Below the pieces are notes generated by a model, which did no database searches, was not told the DNA's origin, and saw nothing but the letters and a program-made list of their open reading frames with translations. Positions 9,360 through 44,639 of a stretch of 64,000 nucleotides of DNA are shown here, one piece after another. Each line of letters starts with the position of its first letter. Positions within the stretch are counted from its first letter, which is position 1. The position numbers and the translations under genes are program-made. Origin of the DNA: Lineus longissimus (Eukaryota > Nemertea > Pilidiophora > Heteronemertea > Lineidae); contig NC_088311.1 of assembly GCF_910592395.1 (NCBI RefSeq), positions 1,738,501 to 1,802,500 on the forward strand, given 5' to 3'.

Positions 9360-12300
9360 ATGAGTAATATTTACATTCAAGAACCGCCAACCAGTGGAAA
9401 AGTAAGTATTAGCAACATTACAGTGTGTCAATTTGTGCTTTTAGTTTTGCTCTAGGCCGCTGTACATTGACCCTGTACATTTATATGTACATTCGACATT
9501 TGTCTTTCATGCAGATCGCAGACGCAGGACTGGTGTTAGGCATGGTTTCTTGGGCATCATTCATATGACATCATCTTTTTTTCAGGTGCTCCTCAGTACA
9601 ACTGTTGGCGATATTGACATTGAGCTTTGGACCAAGGAGACACCAAAGACATGTCGAAACTTCATCCAGCTGTGCATGGAAAGTTACTACAACAATTTAA
9701 CATTCCATCGTGTGGTCAAGAATTTCATCGTCCAGGGTGGTGACCCTACTGGTACAGGAGAAGGTGGTGCATCGACATATGGCAAGCCATTCAGGGTGGG
9801 TAGGATACTTGACTGAGGGTTGCAATCGTTTTTAAGCAGCAAATGCAACCAAGTGGGTTGATAACGATGTCTTGTTTAAAACATTTTTTATGAACGCTCT
9901 GATGTCTTAAAATTTATGGAATGAGTTTACAATCCCCGATCACACCCAAAAAAAAGGTCATCGGTTGACTAACGAAGCACCACTGTTCAATGGATTTATA
10001 GTTGAATACGATCAAACTACGTCATTTCCGATCGGGGATTGTAAATTTTAACCAAATTTATTTCTTACTCGGCTCTATCTTGACTTTTCATTACCTATAA
10101 AATCTTCAAACTATTCAATCAAAACTGTATGGTCAGAATCTGGTTCATTTTATTGTTATAACATGTATATTTCAGGATGAATTCCATTCACGTTTACGAT
10201 TCAATAGGAGGGGTCTGGTTGCCATGGCAAATGCTGGGCCCAATGATAATGGCAGCCAGTTCTTCTTCACGCTCGGAGCAACTCCTGAACTTGACAAGAA
10301 ACACACACTCTTTGGAAAGGTAACCAAAGCATCCCTTCACTGGGTCTTTTGTTTTTCACCTTGAGCTACTCACCAACGTAATCATCATGTCCTCTCTTAT
10401 TTCATTTCACATTTCCAATTATTATACTGCTTATCAAGTACATGTGGGTCATGACATTGAGAGAACCTCTACTCGAGTAACATTAATATTTATCTATTCA
10501 TATTTATTCAGGTCAGTGGCCCTACAGTTTATAACATGTTAAAATTAGGAGATGTAGATACTGACGCAAATGATCGACCAAGATTTCCAATGAAAATACT
10601 ACGGACAAAGGTATGTTTTCATTGGATATGAGTTTTTCTGTCCATTTTCTTGGTAAGACGTTGTCAGATTTGTATTCTTTTTGAAATGAGATTGATTTTA
10701 GGTATGATAAGATGCTGTTGGTGTAGTTGCTGTCTTTCTAGTGTTAACTAAAGATCAGGGCCAAACAATGAACTGAGTGGCTATCATTTCATGAAATGTA
10801 TCTCTCTTGCTAACTGCTTGTTTTGAGGCTTGCCATTCATGTATGCAAGCAATGTTACAACACTGTCTTCAGTTATCATTCAAGGTTAAATTAATCAAAT
10901 TGTTTCCATTATGCTAAAAACTGGCAAAACATGAATAGAGTATAGTTAGCTGTAACAAATGACTTCAAAAACCTCTGTTACAGGTTCTGCACAATCCCTT
11001 CTCTGACATTGTGCCAAGAGATCTAAAGAATATAGAGGAGGCTAATGAGAAGAGAAAAGTTAGTACATCCAAGGCAACAAAGTAAGTTTTGATGCTGTCG
11101 TTCCAGCATATTATGCTCTCCACTCTTGGCACCACAGACTTGTATGGCGTGCAGTCCATCCTAATCCAATCACTTGTATCTGCTTCCAGAAATTTCAAAC
11201 TGTTATCTTTTGGCGAAGAAGCTGAGGAAGATGAAGAAGAAGTCCTGGAAGTGACCAAGGTAGGAATTATGAATTGTGAAGCAAAAGAGATCTGGTCAGA
11301 TTGGTGCATTTCTGTCTTTATAAAATTTGTTGAAATTTGATTGAAGAAAATGAAGATGACTTTGAACTCTTTGCTTGATGTATTAAGGCTTGCACTCAGT
11401 TTCAAGTATCAGTAAGGATTATGATGTTGCTGGGTATCCAAAGGGAGCTTTTGTATAAGTTTTACTATTCCTGAGCCCTTTTTATTCTTTTTCAGAAAAT
11501 GCATGGCAAAAGTAAAAGTAGTCATGACCTTACCGATGATCCGCGGCTGAGTTCTGTCCCGGCAGTCAAACAGCCAAAGCAACAGAAGCGGAAGGCAAAG
11601 GATGATGTCAAGCAGAAAAAAGAGGTAGCTGATAGTTTACTTTTATGAATATATACATGCATGAAATGGACATGAACTACAGCAAAATGTATTATCGGTA
11701 TATTTGCTACCACGAAGTCTTCAGGAAATTGTGACCTTTTGAGATATTTTCAAGGTAAAGGATTGTAATTATTAGTTAGCTGTTTATAATAACATGAGTT
11801 AGTATGCAGTATTTCTTCTTGTCAGGAGTCTTCATCAAGTAGTGAGGAGAGTGATGAGGAGGAAAAGGAACGAACAAAAGAGAATGTGAAGAAGAAATTC
11901 AAGACGGAAGACTCGAAAGAAAACCCTCAACCAGTGCCGCCTCCAGCTAGTAAGCACGATATGGAAAAATCAAGCATGTAAGTCTTGTGTATAAAGAATG
12001 CGGAGTGGGGAAAAAAATATTTTGTGCATGATGAAAAATATTGAGTTGAGAGTTGAGCGTCAGCTGGGACAAAGCTCTATCAACAATATCTAGTGATGGC
12101 AATGAATACATTTAGTAGGAAGAAACCTGAGGACCTGAAGGAAACCTACATGTACACTGTCATGGAGAGACACCCACTCTTTCGTTTGAGTGTACTGGGA
12201 CTGACCTTAGAGGTAATAGGCACTGAATATGTTTTCACTGTACCACGCCAACAGCCCATGAAAGAAAGACCTGATGACGGTGCTTTTCAGCCACTTTGTC

Positions 12301-13781
12301 ATTACTGGGAAGAAAACATATTATCAGATCTACTTTTGTGTCTCTTGCAGTGAAGAGCTTCGGAAGCAAGCACGACAACTGAAAAGGGAGATCATGGGAT
12401 CTTCAAAGAAGGAGGAGGAAAAAGTGGAGGAAAAGAAAAGTATGAGTGGATCTGATCTCCTACTATTGTATTTTCAATTTGTCCAACATTTTTCATAACT
12501 ATGACCTCTGGCAACTTGAGCAATTACATCAATTGTATGCAGGTACTGACAAGAATCATTGCCAACATCAGGGAAAACACTCAAGGGCTGACCTAAGAGG
12601 CTAATCTTAACACCTTCGGCGCCGAACCACGTAGATCAACGTGGCCCAAATCCCCCTCTTTGAGCTGGTTATCGGAGTCTCATAGACTTCTTGAAAGAAC
12701 TACGCCATCGCCATCTGCAGGGCATCTTCAGGGCAAAGTAGGAACCTTCCATGCCCTGCAGATGGCGAGAACTACGCCATCGCCATCTTCAGGGCAAGGT
12801 AGGAACCTAGACCTGAAGATGGCGATGGCGTAGTATTTCTACCTTGACCTGAAGATGGCGATGGCGTAGTTCTCATGAAGTCCATGAGACTCCGATAACC
12901 AGCGCAAAGGGGAATGGGATTTGGGCCACGTAGATCTACGTGGTTCGGCGCTGAAGGTGTTAACTTAACATCCTAGGGGACATACCAAAAACAGTAAGGT
13001 TGCAAACGTAAAGATAACAAACTGTTGTTTCCTTTTCAGACTCTACACCTGTTGATGAGTCTGTTGCTGAATATATGGAGATGAGAGAAAAATATGCCAC
13101 CGAGAAAAAACAGCAGCCAAAGAAGGGTTCAGCCCGGGAGGAGCAAACATTGGCACTGCTGGCAAAGTTCCAGGCCAAACTCCACACAGCTGCTGAGGAG
13201 GCATCTGAAGAGCCTGATGAGGCTGATGAAGTGGAAGATAAGGAGAGGAAGAAGGAGGGAGAGCAATCGGATGAAGATGCTGATGTTGATCTGACTGGAA
13301 CAGCCTGGTGAGTGTTTTGCACCATAATGTATATATTACTGTTAAGTCATCTCTCCAGCATCCCCTGTTTTTGGTTGAAATGGAACCAATGTCGATTCCA
13401 AGTCTTTGCGAACCCAACAGTATCCCGATTGAGAATGTTGAATTCCCTAATTTTTTAATGAAGTAGAAATGACAATGACACTCAACTCTAATGCATGGCT
13501 AGGAAAGTGACATTGTGTGCATGATGATCCTCAGTCATGTGCAGGCCTCTTGTAATACAAAGCTTCGAAGTGGTCCTAAATGCTATGAAGGAATTTCCAA
13601 AATGTTTCATTGCTACTCTTCCAGGTTAGCCCACAAGTTGCGTTTCGACGAAGGTCCCAATAAAGTCCTCGATGCCAATATCCATGATGTGGACCGCTAC
13701 GAGATATTTGATCCAAGGAATCCTATCAACAAACGAAAACGTGAAGCGAGTAAACCTTCATCAAAGGATAAGAGAAGATGA
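9360..13781 (+). CDS. CWC27: spliceosome-associated cyclophilin CWC27
   Basis: A cyclophilin-type protein of the activated spliceosome (Bact complex), partner of CWC22. Eleven exons: 9360-9401, 9586-9795, 10176-10319, 10512-10610, 10984-11081, 11190-11259, 11496-11624, 11826-11977, 12351-12439, 13040-13307 and 13625-13781. They sum to 1458 nt, 485 aa (human about 472). The start [14 protein letters not shown] matches the human N-terminus almost exactly. Residues about 12-170 are the cyclophilin domain, with [15 protein letters not shown] and [10 protein letters not shown]. The usual catalytic Trp is Glu ([14 protein letters not shown]), as in human CWC27, which is regarded as a poor isomerase. 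Then come [10 protein letters not shown], an acidic/basic linker, [23 protein letters not shown] and the C-terminal [21 protein letters not shown] lies at 13915-13920. Confidence 0.97.
9926..10045. mobile_element. 120-bp inverted-repeat element in CWC27 intron 2
   Basis: Perfect 16-bp inverted repeats, TTTACAATCCCCGATC at 9926-9941 and its complement at 10030-10045, enclose about 88 bp without coding capacity. This is MITE-like; no clear target-site duplication was defined. Confidence 0.5.
12611..12959. mobile_element. 349-bp foldback element with TTAA target duplication
   Basis: Flanked by TTAA on both sides (12607-12610 and 12960-12963). The two halves are near-perfect inverted copies for about 115 bp, starting CACCTTCGGCGCCGAACCAC on the left and, complemented, CACCTTCAGCGCCGAACCAC on the right. 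Both arms run on through GGTTATCGGAGTCTCAT and ACTACGCCATCGCCATCT. A nested palindrome CCACGTAGATCTACGTGG lies in the right arm. TTAA duplication is the hallmark of piggyBac-type insertion; no transposase is encoded. It sits in CWC27 intron 9. Confidence 0.8.
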
Positions 13782-15166: not shown

Positions 15167-18100
15167 ATGGCGGGCAAACTGTCAATACCGGTATTGTTTC
15201 CATGCAGTCCCGTTTTGGTTCTGCTTGTGCTGGTCCTCCTATTCATGCTACCGAGTTCAGACTCTCACATCACTTTGACCTACCCTCCCGGTAGGAAATA
15301 CGCCCTAGACTTCCTTAACAGTCGCCTGACACGAGCGCCATGTGGAATGCCAAAAGGTAAGTGCAGACTCCATTCGTTTAATCAACAATAACACGGAATG
15401 AAATAGGAGAATAACAAACATATTGAAATAAAACCAGCAGGCTGAAGATTAAGACTGAAAGTCTTCGGTCCATCCCACGCTCACGGAACCGGTGAAAAGA
15501 GTAACAGAAAGGGGAAATGTATGGAGAAGGGGGAAGCTTTACGGAAACTGGCTTAACCAGCTTTACGCTGTTTTGACGATGACCATAGCGGCATGTTTTT
15601 GTGAAAGAGCAACAAATTAGTGAACAGATATAGAGCCAGATGTTCCTAGGGGCCCTGAACAGCCCATTGAGCCATCAATTACATTCGACCAGAGACAAAG
15701 TCACAATCACAACACTGTCACAACGTGTTCTGGCTGGGTCTTCTAAACATTCAAATGTATGGTGAGAGCTGCCAAAGTTGCCAGTCTCGTACCAATCACC
15801 TGTCACACCTATCATTCAGATCGAGTTTAGTGTAACTCGAAAGTAGTTAACTGCGTATGTTGCGACGTCCTCCTCTTCACCTATTTGTTTCATCTCACTT
15901 TATTGCACCGGATTATTGAGCGAGTAGCATCAGGGCGTCAGGTGTCGCTGAGTAGAAGGACGCCGCAACGTGTGTTCAGCCCCATTGCTTGATCGGTTTG
16001 GCCGACAGCTAGGTTAAAATAGTTAACGGTTTGAGGCTGTTAAAATGGTTATTAAAGTGCTTATTGTCTTAGATGGGACGTAAAGTTCAGCGAGTTGATG
16101 AATGATGCCCTTTCGCCCCCAAAGCATATTAAGTCCTATAGTCCACTTGTGTCAGTATAGACTAACAGTTTGTTTCGACGATGTCGTGACGATGGCGCCC
16201 AAACCCCTGGGTTTGGGTTTTTTAAAACAAGTACATATTGTCACTACCCTGGCTTTAAATCAACTTAGCTTCGTCTACATACTAATTAGTTGACGCCGTC
16301 CCTGTGGACTGAAATATCTAAAAGACCGAAATAAACACACTGATCTATTTTTACGGGATAGTTTTCCAATAAACGACCTAACGAATAGAGAGCTACACGC
16401 AAACTGAGTTGTTAGGAATCGATGACCCGATTATTCATCTGTGTCAAATCTATAACAGAACCAAGCATGCGGTTTGAAATCATTTGAACTCGCTCACTAG
16501 GACTGGGAGCAGTGAGATTCGAAGCTGGTAGATAATGATTTTGCTGTTGCATTCTTTGGGAGACAAGACTTGCGCTTGACTAAACCCACTGGCTCCTGAT
16601 TGTAAATCACTGGCCACTCACGGGAAGATGTTTCCAGGATTAAATCAGTTAGGTGCTATTTTCCAAGAGGTCCAAAATCGATTGTGGGACTGCTTGGTTT
16701 TCATTTGGACAGTCTCTTGTGATCCAGGGAACTCATTAATCGAACTGTTCTATATCTCGTACGACTTGCTTATCAATCAACTGGAGGATGCCGACAAAGA
16801 GCCGGCGGCTGCCTTATAACGAACGCTTTGGTTAAGACAAGTTGCATTGATAACCTGTAAGGACACGGACTGCATTTATTGACGTCTACTTCAAATCACT
16901 TTCACACCAGATTTATCCTGCCAGTTGTGATCGTACTCTTGGGTAAGTTTATCCTGATTTACCGATTTTTACCTGTGTTTTACAGCTAAATAATCACCTG
17001 TGTTAGTCCCACGCCTATGCCTACCCCGTAAAGGGGGTAAAGGTCTAGGACAAGCCCAGCGTACGAGCGATTTTCATTGCTTGCTTCCTCCTTCTCCATC
17101 ATTTTTCCCTTCCTGTTATTCTTTTTGATTGATTTCAACCCTAAAACTTTGGTCTTTATGTGGATCCTTTTTCAGTTGCACTTTGCGAGCCTTTGTGGTC
17201 GAGTGGCTCACATCTCGGGTCTTTAGGCTAGTGGTGAGGAAGTTAAAACCCTACAGTCGTCGCGAGGACTCTTATAGACATAAAATCTTTTTGTCTAATT
17301 GGGCTTATTCTACCCAGTATACCAACAGGTGTATAAATGAGTACATCGGTCAGAAATGCTCAGGATGTAGCGCTGATTGAGCAGCTCATCTGAGTTCTTC
17401 TAAAGTTTTCAGAATAGACCGGGGTTAGCCTGGTGAGACATGCTCAGGTTGTAGCGTCGCCGGGATTGTGCAGCTCATCTTACTCAAGGTTTCAGAATAG
17501 ACTGGGGTTAGCCTGGTGAGACATGCTCAGGTTGTAGCGCCGCCGGGATTGTGCAGCTCATCTTACTCAAGGTTTAAGGATAGACCGGGGTTAGCCTGGT
17601 GAGACATGCTCAGGTTGTAGCGCCGCCGGGATTGTGCAGCTCATCTTACTCAAGGTTTAAGGATAGACCGGGGTTAGCCTGGTGAGACATGCTCAGGTTG
17701 TAGCGCCGCCGGGATTGTGCAGCTCATCTTACTCAAGGTTTCAGAATAGACTGGGGTTAGCCTGGTGAGACATGCTCAGGTTGTAGCGCCGCCGGGATTG
17801 TGCAGCTCATCTTACTCAAGGTTTCAGAATAGACTGGGGTTAGCCTGGTGAGACATGCTCAGGTTGTAGCGCCGCCGGGATTGTGCAGCTCATCTTACTC
17901 AAGGTTTCAGAATAGACTGGGTTTAGCCTGGTGAGACATGCTCAGGTTGTAGCGCCGCCGGGATTGTGCAGCTCATCTTACTCAAGGTTTAAGGATAGAC
18001 CGGGGTTAGCCTGGTGAGACATGCTCAGGTTGTAGCGCCGCCGGGATTGTGCAGCTCATCTTACTCAAGGTTTAAGGATAGACCGGAGTTAGCCTGGTGA

Positions 18101-21100
18101 GACATGCTCAGGTTGTAGCGCCGCCGGGATTGTGCAGCTCATCTTACATAAGGTTTAAGGATAGACCGGAGTTAGCCTGGTGAGACATGCTCAGGTTGTA
18201 GCGCCGCCGGGATTGTGCAGCTCATCTTACTCAAGGTTTAAGGATAGACCGGAGTTAGCCTGGTGAGACATGCTCAGGTTGTAGCGCCGCCGGGATTGTG
18301 CAGCTCATCTTACTCAAGGTTTAAGGATAGACCGGAGTTAGCCTGGTGAGACATGCTCAGGTTGTAGCGCCGCCGGGATTGTGCAGCTCATCTTACTCAA
18401 GGTTTAAGGATAGACCGGAGTTAGCCTGGTGAGACATGCTCAGGTTGTAGCGCCGCCGGGATTGTGCAGCTCATCTTACTCAAGGTTTCAGGAAAGCCCG
18501 CGATTACAAAGTATCATGGTGTCTCTAGTTGTTGATATCGGACAATACGTTTTAGTTCATTCTGCTGTCTCGAAAGGGGGGAATGGCAATTTTGTTACAT
18601 TTTATTGTAGCCACTACCAAAAACCAATGGAAAGTTGTTATATATTCTAAATGACATCCTTCGTTGACATTGAAAATGTGGGTAAATGGGTCACTGACAC
18701 AGTGCCACAGTGCCGCATGTTTTCCACAGTGGGTTTCTAGGCCACATCCGAAGCCTAGTTGTTGATTAACCTACATACGGTACCGTATATCGCATAAAAA
18801 GATCCATCGATATATATATAACTTGTTATCTTAGGCCTATTCTCCACGTCCCGAGTCATCGACTAGCAGTATTTCCCCTTCACTATTTGCCTACAAAGGT
18901 AACATCAACCGTTTCCGTGTCAACGTCTGCGGTCAGTCTCCATGCGATAGAAATATTCGCGGTGGTCATCACAGGTACATGTGACAAGAATGAAGCATCG
19001 CTGCGACCCGCGATGAAATTAAACCATCACCGCAAAATCGCTGTTGCCGGCCAACGGCGTGAAATAACAAAGCAATGTCGCATGCGTTGTCGCAATCGCA
19101 TCAAAAAGACAGCGTTCTCAGCCCCAGTGGGATAGATATATAAGCGGTATATAAAATCATATACATATGGGACGTCTGCAGATCAACCTCTAAACAACTT
19201 TATTTGGTATCGGAATTACAATATGCGTCGGTGTCAACATAACATCGGTGTTTGTCATATATCAATAACTTGATGCCAATGCAAACTGACATGTTGATCG
19301 TTCAAATAGTTGGGCTAGTTGCCTTTTCTGGCCAACTCAACTAGTACTGTATATAGTATCAGAGTCTTTCATCGTTGTTATGTTCGCACGTAATTGGGTC
19401 AGATACTACATGTTTTTATAAAATGTGTAAAATCACGTGGTAATCAAATTGAATGTTGTTTTCTTCTGCTTGCAGTGACGTCATATAGTGGCACATTCTG
19501 ATAAACATGTTTACTGTACTTCACATGTCGTTCCAGATTTTGACCAATTAGAAAATTACAACATGCGCTTGTAAATAACATGTTTACGTATCATCTGATT
19601 TATTGGCATTCATTTCGAGGAATAAGAAACTGGCACACACTGGTCGCCAAGTTCTGATTTGGTGGTGACGTCATTCCTGCTGGCTAGCTTTGTACGTTTG
19701 AAATAACGAGGGGAAACAGAAACCCTTTCAGGTGTAACGATATAAATGTCCCCATATTTCAGAGTTACCTAGACAGTAAGAGGGAGTGTGACTTTCCAAA
19801 GGGGAAAAGACAGAATATTCTCATTCTTGTTTTCTAGCTCAAAAACAGAAAAACTCTCAATAATGACACCGTCCGGTTGTCAAAGTGTTAAAATTTATGC
19901 CGGTCAAAGGCCAACAAGTACAAAATAGAGCAGTTTATCGCTTCTGTGTCGGAGTTGCGTATTCAGCCTTTGAGGGAAATGATGCACAGTCATTGATATG
20001 GAACCCTTCATCACCCAGATGACCTTTCTGTCTTTGTCTCTCATGCAGAGGCCAGTTTATAGCTTTGTCTCATATCCGCATTACCTCATTCACTTCAGGT
20101 CTTGGACCAATCACCGACCTCCGCGCTGGATCCACGTTTAATGTGACGTGGAGGCTTGGATCTCCAACACATGATGTAAGTAGGTCTAACTCACCTTTCG
20201 AAGAAGAGAACATTTCTCTGTGACAATGATATTCGAGACGAGTTTTCACAATGTCTCCTCCTTCTCCATTCTTGCCCCCTTTTTGTTACTCTGTTTCACT
20301 GTTTCACTGTTTCACTGTTTCCAGTGCGACGGCACGTACATGTACATGGTCGAAATTGCTTAAGGTGTACGCGTGTATGTGTGCGTGTGTGTGTGTGTGG
20401 GGGGGGGGGGGGCTACACTCCTGCGCAGTGATTGACAGGAAATAGGCGAAACGCTAATAGGTTGATCAGCTAGGAATAGGCGAAACAGGAATACACCAAT
20501 AGAACCAGTCAAAGAGTATGAAAAATGGCGAAGGAGCAGATTTGAAACTGTGTACAATCTGTTCTCCCCTACATGCTCTCTCCTTAACCTTCCAGGGTGG
20601 CTTTATGCTACAGATCTTAAGCCCGAATGGTACCATTATCACAACCCTGACCAGAAATAGCACAAACTACGTCGGAACAGGTGACAACACTGAACGATAG
20701 TGAGTAGTATGCACTGAGGGATGCTGGAACTAACGCAAAGCCATAATGTAATCAGCTTATGCATAGTCATCTCATTTGCGACGACTAGCAATGTTTCTCG
20801 AATTGATTTATGTTGTCATGGCATAGCGGACATTATTACTGCTGACTCTAAGCTATTAGATTGGGCAACTCTGACAACACTCAAATTAGGATGAGATTGG
20901 ACAAATCCTTACAACAGCTATGGAAAATGTATCTCTGTTGTAATTTCTTATATCGCTGAGACATCTTCGAAATAATATTGATGTAAAGAAATTGGCTCTG
21001 TAAATATTTCTATGTGTTTTTCTCGATTCAGTACCGAGAGATATGAAGTAAAGCTCCCCCAAACTGAATGCCTCAACTGCTCGATACGACTCCTAAGGCA

Positions 21101-24100
21101 GGCACTTGAAAAGGGATTCTACTTCTGGGCGTGTGCAGATGTCAACATTAAAACAGGTAACCGTTCTTTCTTGCAGTCATTTCTTTCCAGACCAACAATA
21201 TCATTGCTATCGTTCATTTAAGGGCTTAATACCAAGTAAGCGGTTAACTGCCAAGCCACCTTCGTAGTTTCCATAATCAATCTGCATATTGAATGGAAAA
21301 AGTCCACATCTGATCTCATGCTATTCGCGACTGGACCCGAATAAGCCCTCAGAGCAGCGAGATTATCTGTTTGCGGATCAACACATTGAAAACGAAACTG
21401 TGGAATATGTGATGCAATTGAATAGTGATATCAAATTGTTCTATTTCAGTTGGCTACACGGAGAAGTGCTCCCTGCACGGTCGGCTCTTGAATGGAGAAT
21501 GCCAATGCGATTCCCTTTACAGTGGTTCTGTGTGTCAATACAAAGGTTAGTTTGTACCCTAGTTTTACCAATCTCAAACATTCATGAGGAAAATAGGGTG
21601 TTTGCAGTTTGCCTCAGTGCAATCCATTTTATACAAAGAACAAAAAGAAGGGGAAAGAATGGAGAAGGAGGAGGCTTCAATTCATCTGTAATTCATGATC
21701 ACATCTAATAATGCAATCAAATCAAAAAGACGAGTCGAAAACCTTCTGAAACAAATACGCTTTAATTTTCCATTCACAGATGAGTGTTGGAAAGACACGG
21801 ACTGTAACAGCCACGGCAGCTGTATAGACAGGAAATCACGGGCCTACCCCAAGAAAGTATGCTACTGTAAGAAGGGCTGGTACGGATTGTTGTGTGAAAA
21901 AGGTGAGAAGAATCGTATCAAGCCAGGAGGAAGTAGATTGAGTTGTAGAGCAGCGTCAGTAGGGAAGCTCTTGCTAAATCTCCCTGCAGCTCGGACCCCA
22001 TGCTCAAGGTCTGTCTTTCGGCCCAGTTGTGATTCAGCCGAATCGTCCCCTAAAGTCTCTATAAAGTTGATGTTGATTTCTGATTCAAACACCATTTATA
22101 TTTTCAGAGTCTCCAATGAAAGATATACCGGGTAGCTTTGTGGGTTACAACCATGTTGAAATCCGACCGGACGTCATCGATATCTTCTGGAAGATGCTCA
22201 AGGTTGGTTTCTGTTCATTTCTCTCAGGCCGACTGATCTCTGGCAGGAGCTGTATAGGGAATCCAGTCGAAGGTTATGAACAGTTAACAACCGGAAATAT
22301 TCCTCGTACAAACGTCAATCGTCCCGATATAGTACGAGATACTGGTAACACCTATCGACATCGTGCGACCTAACAGGGCCTACACCTTGTTGTTGCCTCT
22401 AGTCTCCCTTGAACATAGTTTTGTCGAGTTCACGTTGCGGAACTGCACATCCAGACATTTTCAAGAAAAGAATGATTCCCGGTATAACTTTCAGGACGAG
22501 GGTCAAGTAGAGATCATTATGAGGATGAAGACAACCAGCTGGGTAGCTGTTGGATGGCGCCATTTAGGTAAGACGAGTACCTCAACGAGTCGTCCCAGTG
22601 TGTGTTCCATAAAATCCACAGTTTCGCTCAGCCAAAACATTGAAGTTTTCCGAAGACAGTTGACTCTGATTATCTTCAAGTTTGTATGATTTTATGAGTG
22701 TTTGCATTTCATTCGATCTTCTTGCGAATTTGGGGTCGAACACCAATAACAGCAGATTAATCTCACAGAGGAAGCTAGTCACGGGAAAGAAAAATAATTC
22801 TTCATCAATGTGGCCTATAACCACGGATCTGTGGTCTAATGAACTCCAATGAGCTGCAGTACTGATTTTGTTTTTCAGACGTAAAAACCAATCTGTCGTG
22901 TATGAACTATCCAACCCTTCAACAGCCCTCTGAACTTCAAACCACAGAGTTTGGTGGGACGCAGCAAACAGTTCAGAAACCAGGTAAGATAGAGTGTACA
23001 ACCTCCAAAGTATAAGAGACGTCCAATCATTCATTTTGTAGAGGGATTTCGGTGAAGCTGGAACTAAAACCCCGTTTGATCCCGTTTTTTCCCACCATTG
23101 TCATTTTAAAACGAACAAAGATGGAAAATGGGGTGGATTTCATGCTTCCTGCGGAAATCAGTCACCAGTCTCCATCAGAAAATATATCTGCAGTGCATTT
23201 ACTTTCAGGGAGAATCCACCCTATGAGCTGCAATGACATTGTCATGGGTTACGTGCAGGGTAATCTTAGCTACATCCATGACTACTTCACCCGCGAACAA
23301 CACACGCCTCAGCTGGATACATTCTTCGGAGGAAAAGAGGATCTGACGGGTGCCGTCGGCCACGAGAGGTCGGAACACACATTCATGGGCTTTAGGAAAA
23401 AGCTTAAAGGTATTAGGCCTACAGATGATACACTCCCAACTCGATGAAATAGATTATGCCCTTTTGCAAGAAACGGTCTGCATACTGATAACGGCAACAG
23501 TGAAAAATCAATTGGTTTCATGAAAGTTTTATCCGCGACAAAGTGGATCACGGCACATCTGCCAACGAAGTGGACTATGAAGATGCAACGTATTATATTC
23601 CAGTCCCCTATTACATACACTTCCTTTCTACTGATGATTCATTTATCCCTGAAACAATATGAAGATAACCGCAAGACTTCATTCTCTCTGTCAACTTCGA
23701 TTTCAGCTACGGAACCAACAGACAAGAGCTTTGTTGACGAGGCGCTCCACGTGATCTGGGCCCGTGGACCACAGATCTCCAAGATGAACGTCCAACCACA
23801 AGACAAGAACTTCCAGGCGATGAATCTGTACGCGCCTTACTATGCAAATGGGGATGACGACGCCATGTACCATCTAAATGATCGTCTGCAGCGTGGGAAG
23901 CTGCAGCTGAATTTCTTCAGTAGGTTTAAGAACCAGTTGGACACGAGTTGATATTTGGGCTACATGCTGGAGTAATAGTTCGAAACATAGTGCTGTTGTC
24001 GCCAACAAAAAAGGTCGTTTTGCGATTGATAAAGGATTTGACCTGTGTGACATGTCTGTGTGACATATTACCTCTATGTGTGCATAACCATTGTAAATTT

Positions 24101-25434
24101 TAGAATATTTTAGACTGGACTATTTAATTGTATAACATGTGACGTTTCGCCGTTCAGAGGAACGTCAAGTGCTCGCGAGCCTCATGGTGAACTATCTCTA
24201 CCGTTTCAGAGGCCTCTCCTTACAAGGAAATCATGGACACAACACACAGAGGTAGGTAGACAGGTCTTTCTTTTAATTTTCTTGCTTCGTAGACGCGTAA
24301 GTAAAAAAATAAGAGTACCTGCCATGGTCGTTCCTACCTGTTATGAGTTAACAGCAGCGTCAAAGTATACCGGCATATCTTTCTTGGAATGAAATAAGCC
24401 CCAATGCATGCACAGCATTTCACCAAGTCCACCATGGAACTTGATTATGAGTACCAGAAACCTAACATTTTACGAAGTCAATACTTCCTATATTTGCAGG
24501 AATTCGCTCGGAAACCCAGCTAGGATGGGAGCTCACCATCGGCGTCCTATTCGGTTCATTCGGCTTTATGATCTTCGTGACAATCATTCTCTTGTGCTGC
24601 AAGGTCGACTTGGCCAAAACCACTAACCTTATGGAGAAGGAGAGGAAGAGGAATGCACTACGGATGGACAGGAAGGTGAAAGTGGTCGCGTTGGAAGAGT
24701 TGGGCGAGACGTCAAAGACACCGGTTGAGACAACTCTGGTTATTGGAGGTGGTGTTCTAATAGAGAGCGACAAGGGGGATACACCTCTGAGTGAAGTGGC
24801 TGTGGGAAACGGAGCCGCTTCGGAAGGCAGCAGTGATATTCAGCCAGGCCCTGTAAAGTCTACTCATACTAGTGTGGATGTAATCAGTATTGAAAGTGAA
24901 GTTCATTCACCGCCGAAGGGTATGGTCGGTGAGGGACATAATGATGATGTAAATGAAGCATCTGTGCATGTCATGATAGCTGACGCTCATAAGATTCATC
25001 ATGAAAGTGACCATGGGGAGCCACCGGACGAAATATTGGATGAATTGAGTGCAGAGACATCTGTGGTTGATCAGGCAAATGAGGAAGATGTCGTGGTCGA
25101 TGAACCGCGAGAAGAGGCGGCCGCGGGTGAGTCGAGAAGTTTGGTTGATCAGGTAAATGAGGAGAAGGATACACGAGAGACGGACTCGGTCGCATCGGAT
25201 GAGTCAAATAGTGAACCTGTGACATCTGATGACGAGTCTGGCTCAGCTGATTCAAGTGATAGCGAATCACAAACGATGTTTATTGTGAATGAGGGTGAAG
25301 GGGATCGTAGTCTTCCGGGACTCGGAATTGACAGCCAGCGGGACAATGCAATCCCAAGTGACAGGCTTGGGGAAAGTGATGTGGTGGCCGTGCTTGATGG
25401 TCTTGAAGATGAGGAGGAGATAACACAGTTTTGA
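15167..25434 (+). CDS. LPMO/X325-like + EGF + DOMON type I membrane protein (paralogue 1)
   Basis: Thirteen exons: 15167-15356, 20099-20175, 20596-20699, 21032-21156, 21450-21545, 21780-21902, 22108-22202, 22495-22567, 22879-22983, 23209-23409, 23707-23919, 24210-24251 and 24500-25434. They total 792 aa. Signal peptide 1-33 (cleavage after SDS predicted), so His34 would be the mature N-terminus. Residues 34-165 resemble LPMO-like X325/BIM1 copper proteins: HITLTYPPGRKY, APCG, His88 in SPTHDGG, and FWACADVNI with Asp160. A four-Cys EGF-like module follows (172-194), then a six-Cys EGF (200-236) and a DOMON domain (about 239-465; TTSWVAVGWR, HPMSCNDIV, LHVIWARG). The membrane span is about 492-515. 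The acidic tail ends ITQF, a class I PDZ-ligand pattern. Domain order is clear; the copper-domain identity rests on motifs only. AATAAA lies at 26237-26242. Confidence 0.82.
15496..15560. repeat. dispersed repeat, copy A
   Basis: Shares AAGAGTAACAGAAAGGGGAA, then TGGAGAAG and ACGGAAACTGG, with copy B at 41515-41578. Shorter, more degenerate relatives (GGAAGGGGAAATGTTTGGAG) occur near 31030 and 21645. This is an interspersed family of unknown type inside intron 1 of the first paralogue. Confidence 0.55.
17350..18490. repeat. 83-bp tandem satellite, about 13 copies
   Basis: The unit contains GTTAGCCTGGTGAGACATGC, CAGGTTGTAGCGCCGCCGGG and ATTGTGCAGCTCATCTTACT, repeating every 83 bp. Left-edge copies are diverged and the right-hand copies nearly identical. 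Variants alternate TTTCAGAATAGACTGGG with TTTAAGGATAGACCGG, which suggests higher-order shuffling. The array lies in the 4.7-kb first intron of the paralogue 1 gene. Confidence 0.95.
20378..20412. repeat. GT microsatellite followed by a 14-G run
   Basis: An interrupted (GT)n tract runs directly into 14 consecutive G at 20399-20412, in intron 2 of paralogue 1. It has low-complexity and G-quadruplex potential. Confidence 0.85.
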
Positions 25435-28230: not shown

Positions 28231-31200
28231 ATGGGACATCTTACAACAAGCCTCGTCCTCCTGTCCCTATTCACAGCATCGTACGGAAATGTCGCCCTCA
28301 CATATCCACCGGCACGGAAGTACAATTTCGACTTTATGACAGTGCTCAACTCTCCAGCTCCATGCGGTGTTCCAAAAGGTAGGCTTTACTGATTTGAGTA
28401 ACTACCCCGAAACATATTATTAGGATATTTCCCCATCTCATCCAACCTGATTTGTGCATGTGGATAAGTTGTAGTTTCTCCAAGATTAATGTTTTACGGT
28501 ACGTGGTACCGCTGGTTAGAATCTGCCGCTTGCCTTCAATATCATGGAAGGGATAAATGAAAATGACACTTAGACGTGGTGTGATGTAAATTCAAATCTT
28601 ACCAAGTAGATATGGTTGTTGAACATTCATTCATAAAACCCCCCCTCGCCAGTCTGGGTAGAGGAGTTCGCCAGTTATTTGACTTAACTTCAACCCGACT
28701 CTCTCAAATTTAGGCCTTGTTTTCGATAAAAGCTTTAGGTTCAAACTGTTGGTCTTTGAAACGTTCAGACGTGGGAAGACGAGTTAAGCCTCGCGAAGGA
28801 GCACATGAATGAGTTCGCCTGTCCAAACACACATTGGTCGGATAAAGAGGATCTGTGGTCTCTTCGTTCCAGTGAAGGGGTTCTTCTCTAATCACATTTA
28901 AACGTTTGTCACTCACGGTTAATAAACCCACTAATGCGATAGATTGCGGCAATAGTGGTAACTACATTCGGCTTCAGTGCAAAATGGAAAAATTAAGTGT
29001 CTGCTAAAACTTCCTTGACCAGACTGGTCATTCTCAAAAGGCATGGCAAGTTGAACTGTAATTCTACCATTAGCTGCGCACTGAAGGAAAACGAATATCC
29101 ATGTCTATACTATTCGTCAACATGACTGTAGATCAACACGCTGTCATTGAAATGCACCTCTGTCTTACCAAAGCAGTTCTTTCCTGCCTTCATCAGGGCA
29201 TCTTTTGCAAGGTGGGCCAACTTTGACCCAGACATATATCAATATCTAGGTCAGCACTTGTTAACCATGAGTTATTGAGGCACTGATCTTCCCTAACAAT
29301 TTGAGGAAACTTGGTCTTTACCAATTCAATTAAATATATATCAATGTAGGGCCACTTGTCAAAAATCTTCCATATACTTGCACTTATCTCAAATCTTCAA
29401 TACCCTGAATAAGCCACAAGTCACTCAGGTGTGTACACCAAGGACCTTGCATGAAACTTCTTCTATAGGCCTATCGTACTTGTCCTCATTGCAGTGAGAA
29501 CGAACGAAAGGAATTTGAGAATGAATGATTTACTTGAATGGAGAAGAATATTACGATGGTCACGACGCTTTCATGGAAGGAGACCAAACACACAAACAGT
29601 CTAAACAAAGTGCCCATGAGGCTTCCCGGCGCTCCTGAACTGTGATGGACACTGCCTTCTCGCTTTGTTCCTGAAGAGCGGTAGCAATATTCAATGAATC
29701 GTATGCATTAGGTATTTGATATTGTTGGTTATGCGTGGGGATGATCTTTATACTAGTCCTTATGTTATTACTTGTACATATACTTGGCTTTGATATAGCT
29801 GAATAGTGAGTCGTTTGGAACGCCAGATAAAAAACACTGTTGGCAGTCTCACATTTTATCATTTTGTTTTATAACCCCTGATACATAATCCATTTTATAC
29901 CCATCCACCGATGTGCTATAAACCTCTCTGGTCAAAACGAGGTTGATACACAATCAATTGAATGCAGCATTATAACCAAGGTGTTTTAGATACCATTGAA
30001 GTGTGGCAAACCTAACTACGATATCTAGATGTCTATCAACTCAGATTTCCATTGACATGGATACTTACTCATACAGTACTTCGGCTTTAGGCAGTTCAAG
30101 TATGAATACCTTGTAGGCAAATTCCGGGCGCATTCCTGAAAACATTTTTGGTGATATCTTCAGTTGACTGCCCATTCTGAAAGGACAACAACGAACAATA
30201 CCATTATCAAGTATCTACGCCTGAGATATTTGCAGGTGGCCTTTCCGACGGCTTCTTCTTATTCGGTTATTGCCAATGTAGGCGGCAAATATATATGTAT
30301 AATATGTATTCGAGTGTCAGTGATTGCGTTATAGAGAATTCTGAAAAAGCCTTTTTTTCGGAAGGACACTACTTGAATTATATGCTGATGAGAAACCCTT
30401 CCTTCCCGAAAGCATGTCAACAGATTATCAGATGGCCTACTTATGTACACTTGTCACTTGTCACATAGCCTACATTACGCAACCACTTCAGTACTTCATT
30501 ACGATGAAAACTGATGGTCAAGTTCTACCGTTTCAGGTTTTGGTCCAATCACAGAACTCAAGGAAGGGTCGCAGCTCAATGTGACATGGAATACAGCTAC
30601 AGCGAACGAGGTAAGGAGACCAATCTTAGGGTTAATCTATGTAAATCACCTCTATGAGACAGCACGGTTGTTCTTCCAGCATAAAATGCTCTATAAAACC
30701 TCAGACTTCATTACAAAATGAACTTATCATCAGTAGGCAAACGTTACTATTCTGTCGTCATTTCCTCTCAAAGGTAACGACGTAGTTCGCTCGTGTTGCC
30801 TTTCTGATGTATACTCCACGGATGGATCAGTGCAGAAGCTTTCGTCAACCCAGCTCTTTTCATCCATTTCAGGGTGGTTACATGCTTCAACTGCTCAACA
30901 AAACCGGCGATGTAATCAAAGAGCTCACCAACGGCAAGAATAAGTACATCGGGAGTAGCGAACCTTTGTAAGTACATGAACCTGTATCTGCAGTAATTGT
31001 GGTGTAACCTGGAACGTCCAGTGAGTGAACGGAAGGGGAAATGTTTGGAGAGGGAGCGGCTTGAGGAAACGGAGGTCGAACTCTATGTAATTTCTTTATC
31101 TCTTTCACCCACGATAAAGACTATAGAATTCTGATTATTCTTAAGTCAACGCCAACTCAGGGATTCGGAGGCCTTTAAGTCCTGAACGTGCAGAAGGAAA

Positions 31201-34200
31201 AACTTAACTTACGTCACGATGATGTCAATTCCATTTAAAGGAACAGCTAAGCTAGAAAAGAGAGTGCAAGCAAAAGCGTGATTTCTCTAGAACATCGTAT
31301 GGCTTCAGGCTAAAATAAGCTAATCTTTTCTCTCCTCCTATAAGCACAAGCCAACAAGAGGTGACCCTCCCAGCCGGTGCCTGCCATGATTGCACCATCC
31401 GTCTACTCCGACAGAACCTGCCATTCGGTTGGAACTTCACATACTGGAGCTGTGCTGACGTCAACATTACAGCAAATGGTAAGGTGTTATTCAAATAACC
31501 TGTTTATATTCTCCAGAGATAATGATATGTTATTGCATCTGTCATGAAAAACATGTCTATTTAGGTAATAAAAGTCAGCATCCTCGATTTTTCCTTCCGT
31601 CATGATAAAAAACGCAATATATCTGTTTGAGCAATAAAACATCAATCATCAACAAGGTTCTGTTTGTAGCAGCTTTAATTATTCATTCTATCACACGTTT
31701 CTTTTCAGCGAGCTTCCAACAGACCTGCTCTGGTAAAGGTCAATTTGTTTCTGGAAAGTGCGATTGCAACAGACTATACGTTGGAGACGTCTGTCAATTC
31801 AAAGGTAAGATAACCAATTCATGAGCAGACGGTGCCACGACGAGGATATTCGTGTGTTTCCTTGGTGCTGCTATTCAGGTGTAGAAAAGGGACATGATTT
31901 GATTTGGTACGTTGTGGTACGGGATTTCTAGCTAGATCCCTGTAACCAACCGGATTGAAACTACATGTATAGGTAGATATACATGTATCATCAAATTCTC
32001 CCTCTCCCGAATAATAGTTTTACCCTATTGTTCAGTAAGGGAGTAAGGTGTGTAGCTGTAGAAACCATAGCCATAGATTGGTGCATGGAACCTATCTAAG
32101 GAATAACAATCATTCTTTGTATTTTCAGACGACTGTTTAGTTGCAAAAGATTGCAGTGACAAGGGTGACTGTATCGACACTGGCTCTTTAAGTTATCCTA
32201 AGAAGAAATGCTTCTGCAGGATGGGTTATCATGGGCAAGATTGCTCCAAAGGTATAAGGACCATTCATACTTTGATAATATATGAATATATTTTTATGAG
32301 TACAGAGATATTAGCATCATGTCATCTTCATGTGTTTTTGCAGTGTTATTGACAGTGAGCTAAAAGATTGTAAGAACTTTGAATTGGAATGGCCTTTTTT
32401 CCTGCGTTTTCTCAGCAAGGGTGGTGATATCTGCTAACGAAAACTTCTTTCCTTCCTAGAATCGTCCGTCAAGAAATTTCCCTCTGATATGTCGGAGATG
32501 AAGCTGAAGCAAAACTACCAGTTCCGGCGGATCCGGAACAACCTTTTCAATGTGTACACGCGGTACGACAACAAGACAGAGGAGATCGAAGTCATCCTCC
32601 AGATGCGAACCACAGGATGGGTTGGATTCGGATGGAGACCACTACGTACGTGTTGATGGCTACATTGCACTGTCCTCAGCTGTGATTCGTATCAGTTTGA
32701 TAAGTCAAGGCAACAGGCTTTGTTTTTAACAAGGATGGACTGATCACGCCTGATGTCCACAGCGGACACGTTTTTGTGCTGACAATGTTTGATAGTTGGT
32801 TGGTCTGCAAGACAATATCTTATATCAGAAATCAGAAAAAAATTGTAAGAAGACTCCCACGAAAAATTACTTTTGTGAATATGACTTCAGTCTAAATTGT
32901 TATGACATTATGACATGGGCGTTTTCCACGTTGAGGGGAAAGATGCAATATGTGTTGAACCTTCACGCGTTGCTTTTGTTTTTGCTCACGTGTATCACCG
33001 CTTGTTTTCAGACACTGATCCAAAGTGTATGAACTTCCCACCCCTGCCTAACGCCACAGAAGTCAACGAACCACAAGTACCTCCACAGCCAAGTAACTAC
33101 TCAGGACCACCAGATAAGAACTACTTGAAAAGTAAGTTTGAACGCCAAACAAAATGTCGCCGAGTCTCATGTCTAGCTTGTTCTCGTGTGGCGGGAGGGT
33201 GCAAAGTCAAATGGAGCAGGTGAGAGCAATCACCCATATCCTCTCAAACCATCTTCTCAAAAACTCAATCATGGCATTTTCAGTTTTTTCAATTTCTCGT
33301 TCTTCGGGTGCATTATCAAACATTGGGGTTCAAGACGAGTCAATGCACTTACCTAGCGCAAGAACATGTTACTAAGTGAGTGTTTCTGATGAGTTTTTGT
33401 TTGAATAACTTTCAGGCTATGACCTCCACGAGATGTCCTGTTGCGACATCGTCACAGCCTACGTGCAAAGGAATCTTAGTAACATTGGTGACTACTACTC
33501 AAAAGAGGCCGGCTCGCCATCTCTTGATACCTATTTCGGTGGCAGTGACAACCTTGTAGCAGCCATTGCGGCCTATTGGGGCAACTATACATGGGTATTG
33601 TTCAGGAAAAAACTAAATGGTAAGCACAGATTCACATGTTCATCTTATTAATTAGAAGAATGCTTGAAAGTATCCGTTCTGTCAAGGCATGAGTAACTTC
33701 GAACGTGTTAGGAGTAAAATGAAGGGCCTATATATGGAAAAGGAGGAGGCCTTTTTGCCTCAGTACGACATAATATAACAAAGGTTTCGCTGCATCCGTG
33801 ACAAAAGTATGATGAAGCGTTACAATAAGGTTTATAGTGAGCGACATCTGAAGTCGTGATCCAGCGAGTATCCTTGCTTGGGCGGTGATATCAATTTCCT
33901 CGGCGTATAGCGTCGGAAGATGGTATTTTCTTCTTGTTCTTGGTTCTCAATCTTAGTTAGCGGTACCATGATATGAATCAGATATTTACTTCCAGAAAAG
34001 ATTTGATATACATTGATTTTCATTATTATCGTCAACTAACTTAGATAACGCTGACATTTTTCTCTAGCCACTGATCCGACTGACCAACCTTTCCTAAAGG
34101 AACACATGTGGGTGATCTGGGCAAGAGGGCCGAATGTCCCCGCTAGGAAGAAAAGAGCAGGTCTGATCAGTCCCAAAACCGCATACCATGGCAAGAATAA

Positions 34201-37200
34201 TTTAGTTAGATACTACACTCAGATAAACTTCTTTGGTGAGTGAGCAATCAGCGCATTGAACTTTAACTAAAAACTTCGTATTACGTAATTCCTCTGGAAT
34301 ATTTGAATGATTACCGTCACATGACAGGTATCATTGAAATAGTCGACGAACTGTGACAGATGTTCTCTTTTAAGGTGCAGCGAACAAAATTATTCAGAAA
34401 CCACGACCTCGTTACTGTTGATAGAATTATCTAACCAGATGTTAGTTGCAGTGGCCCAAAGAAAAGATCTGTTGCAGGCGAAAACAGCTTTCGATGAAAT
34501 CCTCGACGAATCTCGTCTTAAAGCTAAACGCTATCTATTTCAGCCCCACCGACGGGTCCTGCTGCTCCAATCGTGCCTGGCTTCTGGGATGCAGCAACTT
34601 GGTGTAAGTACCACACCAGCAACTGAACATTTCTTGTCAACTGGGCTTGAATCCTACCGAAGAGTTGGCTTAATTTTGGGAAATGTTTTATAAACTTTAC
34701 CACGATTTCATTCAGCATTGTCACTGCGTAGTAGTCTAAAATGCCCAATTCCGAAAAGGTTTTTATACCTTATCTAAAGTGACTAGTCAAGGTATATGGT
34801 TGTACAGAGACAATGACCACCAATGCCACAGACATTACCAGCGCATAATAGAATCCTTTGACCCAAGAAACCCCATCCTTGGACATTTCAAAGCTTACAT
34901 TGGTTTCTTTTCCCTTCCAGTGGTCCCCTCAAGCACCTTACTCCCCTTCCAAACCTTCGTCGACCTCTTGTTTGGTATTTTTGGTATGCTCATACTGGTT
35001 ACCCTAATCCTGTGCTGCTGCAAGAGGGATCAAATAAGACAAGAGAAGGAGCGGGCAGCTACCTCCATATTGAATGAGAAGGTACGTTGATATCAATAGT
35101 GTTTGTAGAAACCAGGAATGTTGCTTGCAACAGCGGTGGCATCGCAGCACAGTTACATGGCTTGCTGGCGGTAACTATAGGCGAAAGGCAAAAACAACCA
35201 TCTGCCCTGATATTAGAGGATTAGGTATTTACTTTATTTAATGATAGTAACAGTTGTCATCTAGAACGAAAAAGTTCATGGGATGAAAATTCTAGCCGTT
35301 TTGTGGAAACTTTGAGCAATCTCCACCAAAGCCACAGGAGCACACTCACAATGTGTCCCGAGCCAGCCCTGCCGCAATACATGCCTCACTTGTTCATAGG
35401 GACACAATGCTTAGCTACTATCAAACGAAGAAAATCGGCAACTTCAACTTTTTCGCAACTCTTTTCTGCAAGTGCTTTTATAGCGGTTACAAAAAACATT
35501 CCTCATACATGGGTTCTAATCGAATTGCACATATTAAGATCATTTGTACATATTGGGGCGTTTTATTGAACAGCCATATGCGTGAGTCCAATTATATATG
35601 ATCAACCAATTCAATATTCATACTGATGCATGCTACATTCCCGCTGCTGAAGCAGACAGCTGAACCTACCCATTACCACTTTCCTAAAAAGCAGGGACAT
35701 AGCCTAACGACAGTTATAATAAATCCCGCTTCAGGAATGTGGCGAATGGGGTCAGATGCGACTGTTGTCAGCAACTAACTGTTCCCAATGCCTTTCCTTT
35801 CGAAGCACTTCTTTTGCACGCCATTCATCACTATCATAAAGCCCTGTGGAATACAGACTGAGAACATCGAAAGTATACTTTTTCTCTAAACATGCACGGG
35901 TACATGTAATATAAGAAATCAGTTGCTAAGAACTGATAAAGATAGAATGCGCTCGGTCTATGGCTATATATCTCCTTCGCCTTCCAGACAGTGGTCATTG
36001 AGCTTGCGGGGGTAACGAACCCAGCTCTTGAAGGGACCAGCACCGCCACTGATTCTGTTGCCCCTCAAGAATACAGAGGCTACGTACCTTGCAAGGAATA
36101 TTCGCTTTATAAATCGGTATAGCAATTTCACCAGGTAGTTAGCATGGGCTGCCGGCTTTTCCATTTGCTGAATTCATTAGTTATACCTAAATAACACACA
36201 CCATAACCTATCGTTCCTTAGTTCACTCATTTAGCCTTAGTTGCATGCTGCGGTAAAGGGTGTCATACTGTCCGTCGCTTTCATAATAACACTTAAAAAC
36301 TTCGTTTGGTCTCCTGTGATAGCATCCTGAGATCAGACTTTTTTACTCCTATGCCGTATACAAAATATCGAAATATCGAGAGGTGGAGTATATTGAACAC
36401 AACTTCTTGTTCCCACGATGCTATGCTAGTTCAGTTTTCGATTATAGGAGGCCAAATGCCTAACAACTGCCAAAATATACAGACGTTTGCGACGACTTGT
36501 TGGGATTTCAAGATTGATATTGGCAAAAAGGTGTTTGAAATCCTTCCATGGAGCGATCCGAACAAGTGACCATCAACGAGAGATGCAGACATGCCATGGA
36601 AACCTCTGGTTGAGCCAAATGCACCTTGTCACCCTGACGATATACACATGCAATATCCTTCTATCTAGTTTGTAACATATATAAATATCTTGGTGGCAGC
36701 AGGACAATCGATATAGATTTGGGGACGGTCAAGAGACTAACAATCAAGTTTCAACTACAGCTTATCAAAACAATTAGTGAGCTGATCAATCGGGCACCTT
36801 TCTGACTTTCATTTGGGTCGACGTCGGCGATTTGTTGAACGATGAATGAATTAGTCCATGTCGCATCTCTATTATTTTAAGGTTCACAAAACAAATTATA
36901 GTTGAAATAAGAACACTGGCAGTTACTCCATCCCGTGGTAATTATAGACCTTCCCTGTTGTGTTTTGCAGAATGCCGACATAGAACTTGAAGTAGGCATC
37001 GATGCACCTTATGACGTTACAGCTGACGAAGTAGACGTAGAGGCTGGAGCAAATGGTAGAGTAGGGTACGATGCCAAGGTCAGGGTCGAGGCAGATATAC
37101 CCAACAACAACATCGAGTACGACCATTCGGCACCAGTGACCTACATAGATGACATCGTAGTTTCGACTCCAGGAGACTCCAGCAGCAGCAGTAGTGATTC

Positions 37201-40200: not shown

Positions 40201-40582
40201 ACTCAAACCGTCCGGTCGGGTGAAACTTGAAAGTGCGAAACCTACCAAACCTTCCGTATTCGATGTAATCGAACCACAACACGCAGGCACACAAGAGACG
40301 GCACCTCCAATAAATTTCACCGCTGATGTTTCGCTCCCGAGTGCAGCAGTTGGGGCGAGCATCGATGTCCATTCGAACCCAAGCTCTCGGGCTTCTTCCA
40401 GGCGGTCCAGCATAGGTAGCGTCTCATCAGCTGGGTCGGCCGATTCATCGGACACGGCAACTCACTCGGGTGTCTACGAGTTCGGGGTGGAGAGGAGTTC
40501 CAGTGAGGAATCTCTGAACGAGGAGGTCGTAGAAGATGGCATCAAGCTGAGGTCTTTTAAAAGAGAAGTGACTCATTTGTAG
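28231..40582 (+). CDS. LPMO/X325-like + EGF + DOMON membrane protein with AHNAK-like tail (paralogue 2)
   Basis: Thirteen exons: 28231-28378, 30537-30610, 30873-30967, 31345-31478, 31709-31804, 32129-32251, 32460-32645, 33012-33131, 33416-33619, 34068-34235, 34544-34603, 34921-35081 and 36971-40582. They total 1726 aa. Domain order matches paralogue 1 and intron phases are shared. Signal peptide 1-19 leaves Asn20 where paralogue 1 has His; the second His is also Asn (ATANEGG, N73), while PCG and SCADVNI (D144) remain. EGF modules span about 155-223, DOMON about 224-445 (HEMSCCDIV, MWVIWARG) with a furin-like RKKR (420-423), and the membrane span about 483-505. The last exon encodes about 1200 cytoplasmic residues of acidic (D/E)(I/V)D(I/V) repeats, GFGFGFGHK blocks, a poly-Ser and a poly-Pro run, ending EVTHL. 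AATAAA lies at 42055-42060 and 42078-42083. Confidence 0.82.
37943..38122 (+). repeat. 90-bp coding tandem duplication
   Basis: Two adjacent 90-bp copies (37943-38032 and 38033-38122), identical except for about one base (TCT versus TCA) in the compared stretch, add 30 residues (VVDVPEVIAVEAVDIKPVDV and onward) to the AHNAK-like tail without changing frame. The near identity implies a recent event or gene conversion. Confidence 0.9.
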
Positions 40583-44458: not shown

Positions 44459-44639
44459 AACAACTGAGCCATGACATTTGAGCATATTGATAATGAGTCT
44501 TCCTGAAGTGTGATACAACAAACAAGTTCCTGTCGATGTTCAATGTGTTGCATTGAACATCACTATAGATACCAAAAGAGGTTTATTTGATATGAATTAT
44601 AAAAAGATATTATCATAAAACATGATCTTGTTGTTATTC

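Follow-up and report, generated by a model that had tools for sequence, protein, structure and literature searches.

Adjacent genes of the nemertean Lineus longissimus join an LPMO-like domain to EGF modules, a DOMON domain and a membrane span

Two adjacent genes with one domain layout

We analysed a window of 64,000 nucleotides from chromosome 4 of Lineus longissimus (contig C4:1738501-1802500 of a 391,118,348-base genome; positions below count from the first letter of this window), which contains a tandem pair of genes, here called gene A and gene B. Gene A (15167-25434, + strand) has 12 exons and encodes 778 residues, arranged as a leader (1-33), a domain of about 130 residues resembling lytic polysaccharide monooxygenases (LPMOs; 34 to ~163), two EGF modules (~166-238), a DOMON region (~239-467), a membrane span (~481-501) and an acidic tail. 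Judged from profile comparisons, the N-terminal domain is a homologue of the LPMO superfamily, and its two candidate copper histidines align with those of bacterial relatives and of an AA15 enzyme. The exons were read from GT/AG sites with consistent phases, giving a predicted model from the ATG at 15167 to a stop codon that ends at 25434.

15167-15356, +: gene A exon 1; leader peptide, His34 (codon 15266-15268) as start of the mature chain, PCG; runs from the ATG to a GT donor, His34 in register with the first His in 20 bacterial relatives
20099-20175, +: gene A exon 2; FNVTW...SPTHD with His88, the second brace His (codon 20170-20172); splice model, alignments to AA15 and bacterial relatives
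20596-20699, +: gene A exon 3; central part of the LPMO-like domain, with Asp119 in its Gly-rich loop GTGD; splice model
21032-21156, +: gene A exon 4; last part of the LPMO-like domain, with CLNC and WACADVNI (Asp160, codon 21138-21140); splice model, family profile match
21450-21545, +: gene A exon 5; EGF module 1; splice model, Pfam
21780-21902, +: gene A exon 6; EGF module 2; EGF_Teneurin above cut-off
22108-22202, +: gene A exon 7; start of the DOMON region; splice model
22495-22567, +: gene A exon 8; DOMON strand ...MKTTSWVAVGWR; splice model
22879-22983, +: gene A exon 9; insert in the DOMON; splice model
23209-23409, +: gene A exon 10; DOMON core, Met335 (codon 23223-23225); splice model, Pfam, column probing
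23707-23919, +: gene A exon 11; end of the DOMON, His411 (codon 23748-23750); splice model, Pfam, column probing
24500-25434, +: gene A exon 12; membrane span (~24529-24597), acidic cytoplasmic tail, stop; splice model, hydropathy, direct splice confirmed by gene B

The DOMON domain of gene A was identified by Pfam PF03351 (E 2.5e-14; the whole chain scored 54 bits, with the cut-off at 32.7), and an EGF_Teneurin match was likewise above its cut-off (E 1.2e-6). Hydropathy of the protein presented a single strong peak after the leader, at ~481-501. An earlier note on this DNA, made from the letters without database searches, had described a leader predicted to end before His34, the motifs PCG, SPTHDGG (His88) and CADVNI, and EGF modules, a DOMON and a membrane span on the same chain; all of these elements were found again where it had placed them.

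Gene B, a diverged second copy, was found by a protein search of the worm's own genome and was assembled from 28231 to a membrane exon ending at 35081. Its domain layout is that of gene A, and its DOMON also lies above the Pfam cut-off (50.2 bits). The N-terminal domains of the two proteins are 49% identical and the parts from DOMON to membrane 41%. Searches of the genome with either gene gave no further copy at E < 0.001.

28231-28378, +: gene B exon 1; leader, Asn20 replacing the brace His; own-genome search, splice model
30537-30610, +: gene B exon 2; Asn73 (codon 30605-30607) replacing the second brace His; splice model, alignment to gene A
30873-30967, +: gene B exon 3; splice model
31345-31478, +: gene B exon 4; CHDC and WSCADVNI; splice model
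31709-31804, +: gene B exon 5; EGF module 1; splice model, Pfam
32129-32251, +: gene B exon 6; EGF module 2; splice model, Pfam
32460-32645, +: gene B exon 7; DOMON, first half; splice model
33012-33131, +: gene B exon 8; insert in the DOMON; splice model
33416-33619, +: gene B exon 9; DOMON core, Met332 kept; splice model, Pfam
34068-34235, +: gene B exon 10; end of the DOMON, Trp408 (codon 34109-34111) at the column of gene A His411; splice model, alignment
34921-35081, +: gene B exon 11; membrane span; splice model, hydropathy
36971-40582, +: gene B probable last exon; cytoplasmic tail of 1203 residues, phase-0 acceptor, stop codon after 40579; joined by phase and acceptor only

Splice phase is identical between the two genes at each shared junction, which independently supports the exon joins of gene A; an extra phase-0 intron lies in the DOMON of gene A. 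A candidate extra exon of gene A at 24158-24251 was dropped, because its phase did not fit and gene B splices straight into the membrane exon. The probable tail exon of gene B consists of repeats rich in Val, Asp, Ile and Pro and in Lys, and had no Pfam match at E 0.01; we take these repeats to recall AHNAK-like tails.

The N-terminal domain and its candidate copper site

The profile that best matched the worm domain is the bacterial NCBIfam family SCE4755, 'polysaccharide monooxygenase-like' (NF043005), with 33.3 bits for gene A (E 4e-8) and 36.1 bits for gene B (E 6e-9) against a cut-off of 75. On these scores the domain is homologous to the SCE4755 family and is not filed as a member of it. 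A profile of the worm pair matched 20 bacterial relatives at E 1.3e-15, and a profile of those relatives gave 31.9 bits for gene A and 27.6 for gene B. This match is not due to chance, since 2000 shuffles reached at most 6.9 bits and shuffled or reversed N-terminal domains (n=10) gave 0 Pfam matches.

The earlier note had placed the domain with X325/BIM1 in particular, which the scores do not support. The two Pfam models it had named for a check did match the gene A domain when this was cut out of the chain (BIM1-like, E 0.0013; LPMO_10, E 0.0064), both below threshold: on PF20238 (X325/BIM1-like) gene A scored 19.6-22.2 bits and gene B 19.3-21.1 against a cut-off of 27, and on PF03067 (AA15/LPMO_10) gene A scored 17.3-17.6 against 23. 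SCE4755 matches better. Other searches gave little: the worm pair found 20 pattern matches and 0 relatives in viral contigs, and 33 pattern matches and 0 relatives in a first scan of bacterial genomes; the gene B domain found no relative in plasmids; one bacterial domain compared with the PDB by sequence gave just a weak AA9 match (E 0.75); and PF20238 had no match in the Lineus genome, but the model was silent in all 14 controls as well.

The predicted structure of one bacterial relative has an immunoglobulin-like LPMO fold, with AA15 as its best match and LaX325 next; the worm domain may share this fold. AA15 being the closest fold, and having members that degrade cellulose and chitin (PMC7924993; papers are cited here for those passages of them that were available), one might suppose that gene A encodes a true membrane-tethered LPMO, fed by its DOMON and oxidising chitin-like or matrix glycans or a glycoprotein. 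We regard this as improbable. The domain is short, ~130 residues where AA15 has ~190, and contains 4 cysteines against the ten reported for insect AA15s (PMC5823890). Moreover, of 21 columns that do not vary among the bacterial relatives gene A retains 10 (gene B, 9), and because Glu, Arg and Tyr columns are among those lost, it is doubtful whether gene A would have their kind of catalysis.

The leader of gene A ends in LPSSDS, with Ser at -3 and -1, and by the -3/-1 rule cleavage is predicted directly before His34. His34 aligned with the first His in 20/20 bacterial relatives; the start of these sequences had been set at a His following an Ala, and this column is therefore not independent. 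His88, mature residue 55 and part of SPTHDGG, aligned with the invariant second His in all 20, and this second His had no part in selecting the sequences. In a global alignment, His34 and His88 fell on His1 and His91 of 5MSZ, the AA15 structure in which these two residues hold the copper and the axial Tyr184 is non-coordinating (PMC5823890). The other motifs of the domain are PCG (58-60) and CADVNI (158-163).

Probing of the Pfam models was less uniform. PF20238 favours His at the first position, with 2.8-3.0 bits lost on change. For the second His, the BIM1-like model prefers the position three residues before His88 and LPMO_10 that one residue before, and replacing His88 raised the BIM1-like score by 1 bit, which counts against a plain motif match. 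We read this preference as a shift of the loop, since His88 falls exactly on the expected column when aligned with the bacteria and with AA15.

Taken with the SCE4755 match and the fold of the relative, the alignments uphold what the earlier note had said of an LPMO-like domain in which the mature chain starts at His34 and His88 completes the brace. Its proposal of Asp160 as a third copper ligand is not supported. The CAD Asp occurs in 19/20 bacterial relatives and also in AA15, where His1 and His91 hold the copper, so that it is better seen as a residue common to the family than as the ligand of X325; the Asp that binds copper in X325/Bim1 is located on a Gly-rich loop (PMC7529816). The corresponding candidate in gene A would be Asp119 of the GTGD loop, a loop that is missing in gene B. 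Changing it to Ala shifted the BIM1-like score by 0.2 bits, no Asp moved along the loop clearly raised that score, and no Asp column was shown. At the axial place a Tyr is found in 20/20 bacterial relatives and in gene B, and a Phe (Phe155) in gene A. Phe at this place occurs in bacterial AA10 enzymes, which together with the two brace histidines is a further point in favour of a tethered LPMO.

The DOMON domain, gene B and the proposed function

Column probing of the DOMON model in gene A cost 4.2 bits on loss of Met335 and 3.2 on loss of His411, both favoured columns; Trp at His411, as in gene B, cost 4.5 bits, while none of three controls cost more than 1.5. In insect CYBDOM proteins a Met/His pair of the DOMON is the presumed heme ligand, and the ligand of a DOMON domain can be a sugar or heme (PMC10691727). 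Heme binding by the gene A DOMON is plausible, and Met335 and His411 could ligate a heme of the b type.

We tentatively favour, at somewhat short of an even chance, the reading that gene A encodes a copper-histidine-brace protein tethered to the membrane, which would serve to handle copper or to oxidise and may have a heme electron partner in its DOMON. We infer copper binding, heme binding, electron transfer and a substrate as follows. Gene A would encode a membrane protein of type I that begins with a copper histidine-brace module of LPMO fold. Signal peptidase would free His34, and one copper would be bound by the amino group and ring of His34 and by the His88 ring, with Phe155 taking the axial place that Tyr has in the bacterial relatives. 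The two EGF modules may hold the brace module away from the membrane-proximal DOMON, which could pass single electrons to the copper at the surface of the worm cell. The likeliest job would be to capture and reduce copper, or to use copper in oxidising a glycan or protein of the cell surface.

A number of results weigh against this proposal. Neither BIM1-like nor LPMO_10 was listed in the Pfam scan of the whole 778-residue chain of gene A, and the gene B domain had no LPMO_10 match. By sequence, the worm domain found no LPMO in the PDB; on a three-sequence AA15 profile both genes scored no higher than shuffles; and a direct profile-profile comparison of the worm pair with two AA15s of Lineus itself was weak (Prob 2.5%). 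The Foldseek TM-scores of the bacterial relative's model were modest (0.47 to AA15, 0.63 at best), and the changes of gene A at the invariant Glu, Arg and Tyr columns count here as well. On the side of the DOMON, the Met of gene A recurs in other DOMON exons of the genome, a sequence search of the PDB with the DOMON profile gave no DOMON that binds heme, and the 778 residues contain no cytochrome b561 Pfam domain that would feed it electrons.

Several of these points would suit a copper-binding receptor, in which the brace domain binds or ferries copper at the cell surface, a role that has been proposed for the fungal X325/Bim1 proteins, and the DOMON is a heme-free module for a glycan or other ligand. 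LaX325 came second in the fold comparison, X325/Bim1 proteins bound copper but did not cut polysaccharides in the tests cited (PMC7529816, PMC7924993), the bacterial Glu, Arg and Tyr columns are lost, no cytochrome b561 part is present, and a DOMON may have sugar instead of heme as its ligand (PMC10691727). We consider such a receptor rather unlikely, given that gene A retains both favoured DOMON residues, Met335 and His411, and that the Asp ligand of the X325 type could not be placed by profile probing.

Gene B has Asn at the positions of both His34 and His88 and Trp at the His411 column, and keeps the CAD Asp and the DOMON Met. Gene B is a sister on a longer branch, and because both copper histidines and the DOMON His are lost, it probably has a non-redox role, as partner or decoy. 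Branch lengths were 0.20 for gene A and 0.82 for gene B, in a tree that carried a long-branch warning. The loss of the histidines in gene B, with their retention in gene A, was rejected as proof by itself, being not significant when 9/21 and 10/21 invariant columns are kept.

Since gene B keeps the whole layout in the absence of these residues, the layout seems useful without them. This, and the long charged tails of both genes, might point to an adhesion or signalling scaffold in which the N-terminal domain is a metal-free recognition module and the acidic tails carry the function. We find this very unlikely, as gene A keeps both histidines and lies on the shorter branch, the long-branch warning again applying to that comparison.

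The copper-brace reading of gene A also has a stronger form, which we hold as doubtful: one membrane-anchored animal chain would be a self-contained relay between a heme DOMON and a brace copper, adjoining a tandem sister that has lost both redox sites. Overall, the interpretation of the earlier note is partly supported, its copper/heme redox device on one chain being an attractive possibility. In any case, a brace domain of bacterial-family kinship on an animal DOMON membrane protein is a defined object for tests, and the adjacent pair, with ligand residues present in gene A and absent in gene B, provides a natural control for copper or heme function.

Elsewhere in the window, trefoil and glycoside hydrolase family 31 exons at 59808-62858 (+) belong to a membrane glucosidase-like gene. 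A cyclophilin-type isomerase exon is followed by further exons at 9445-13781 (+); these we presume to be CWC27-like, and one such piece had no Pfam match. A laminin N-terminal domain exon lies at 1502-1942 (-; E 2.1e-18), and at 44637-45727 similar reading frames are arrayed on both strands, with the look of tandem repeats.

Comparison with known systems

No description of such an animal fusion was found in openly licensed PMC text, a body that leaves subscription papers mostly outside its coverage. Within it, DOMON, LPMO and EGF-like in combination gave nothing; papers on DOMON and LPMO, by title, contained no such fusion; titles and abstract starts for BIM1-like/DUF6595/PF20238 named no animal protein of the gene A kind; and among the PMC matches listed there was no paper on SCE4755 by name. 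The word 'Domon' in the LPMO paper PMC5823890 is, in both passages that contain it, an author name in a mass-spectrometry reference. In the parts available of a review (PMC10952591), AA15 is described as the histidine-brace family extending far into the animals, and electron transfer is an unknown but potential role for X325.

The SCE4755 family, here mainly from Myxococcota, is homologous over nearly the whole worm domain and shares with it the leader peptide, the mature N-terminal His, the second His and the PCG, CxNC and CAD motifs. It differs in the Glu, Arg and Tyr columns lost in the worm, and its reading frames, as read by eye, have low-complexity C-termini, with no EGF or DOMON noticed, no scan for these having been made. 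Several of these frames end in what we take to be a sorting tail of the MYXO-CTERM kind. In Nannocystis exedens two genes of the family lie side by side (C2:556505-557795), both over the cut-off.

X325/BIM1-like proteins (PF20238), listed for fungi in a table of the review PMC10952591, resemble the worm domain through the likeness of LaX325 to the bacterial relative's model and through a sub-threshold Pfam match covering most of the profile; their third ligand, the Asp, was not placed in the worm domain. With AA15 LPMOs (PF03067; Thermobia 5MSZ) the points in common are the fold of the bacterial relative, both brace histidines and the CAD ending, which align. The worm domain is shorter, with four cysteines rather than ten, and reaches ~17 bits on LPMO_10 against 71.1 for one Lineus AA15. 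At C13:6750155-6755096 the same genome has a head-to-head pair of AA15 LPMO genes, both over the PF03067 cut-off and matching 5MSZ at E 1e-15 and 1e-54, so that Lineus also has ordinary LPMOs.

The ferric reductases CYBDOM, SDR2 and CG8399 are likewise animal surface proteins whose DOMON has Met and His (PMC10691727). CYBDOM has a cytochrome b561 domain after the DOMON, which gene A, with its single membrane span after the leader, does not have. In fungi, the DOMON cytochrome of cellobiose dehydrogenase serves LPMOs. The homology of DOMON domains with that cytochrome has been noted (PMC10691727), and we use the fungal system as a working analogy: there, LPMO and DOMON are on separate proteins, the latter with a flavin dehydrogenase, whereas here the two domains are on one chain without a dehydrogenase. 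Two redox partners that are separate in fungi may thus sit on a single animal chain.

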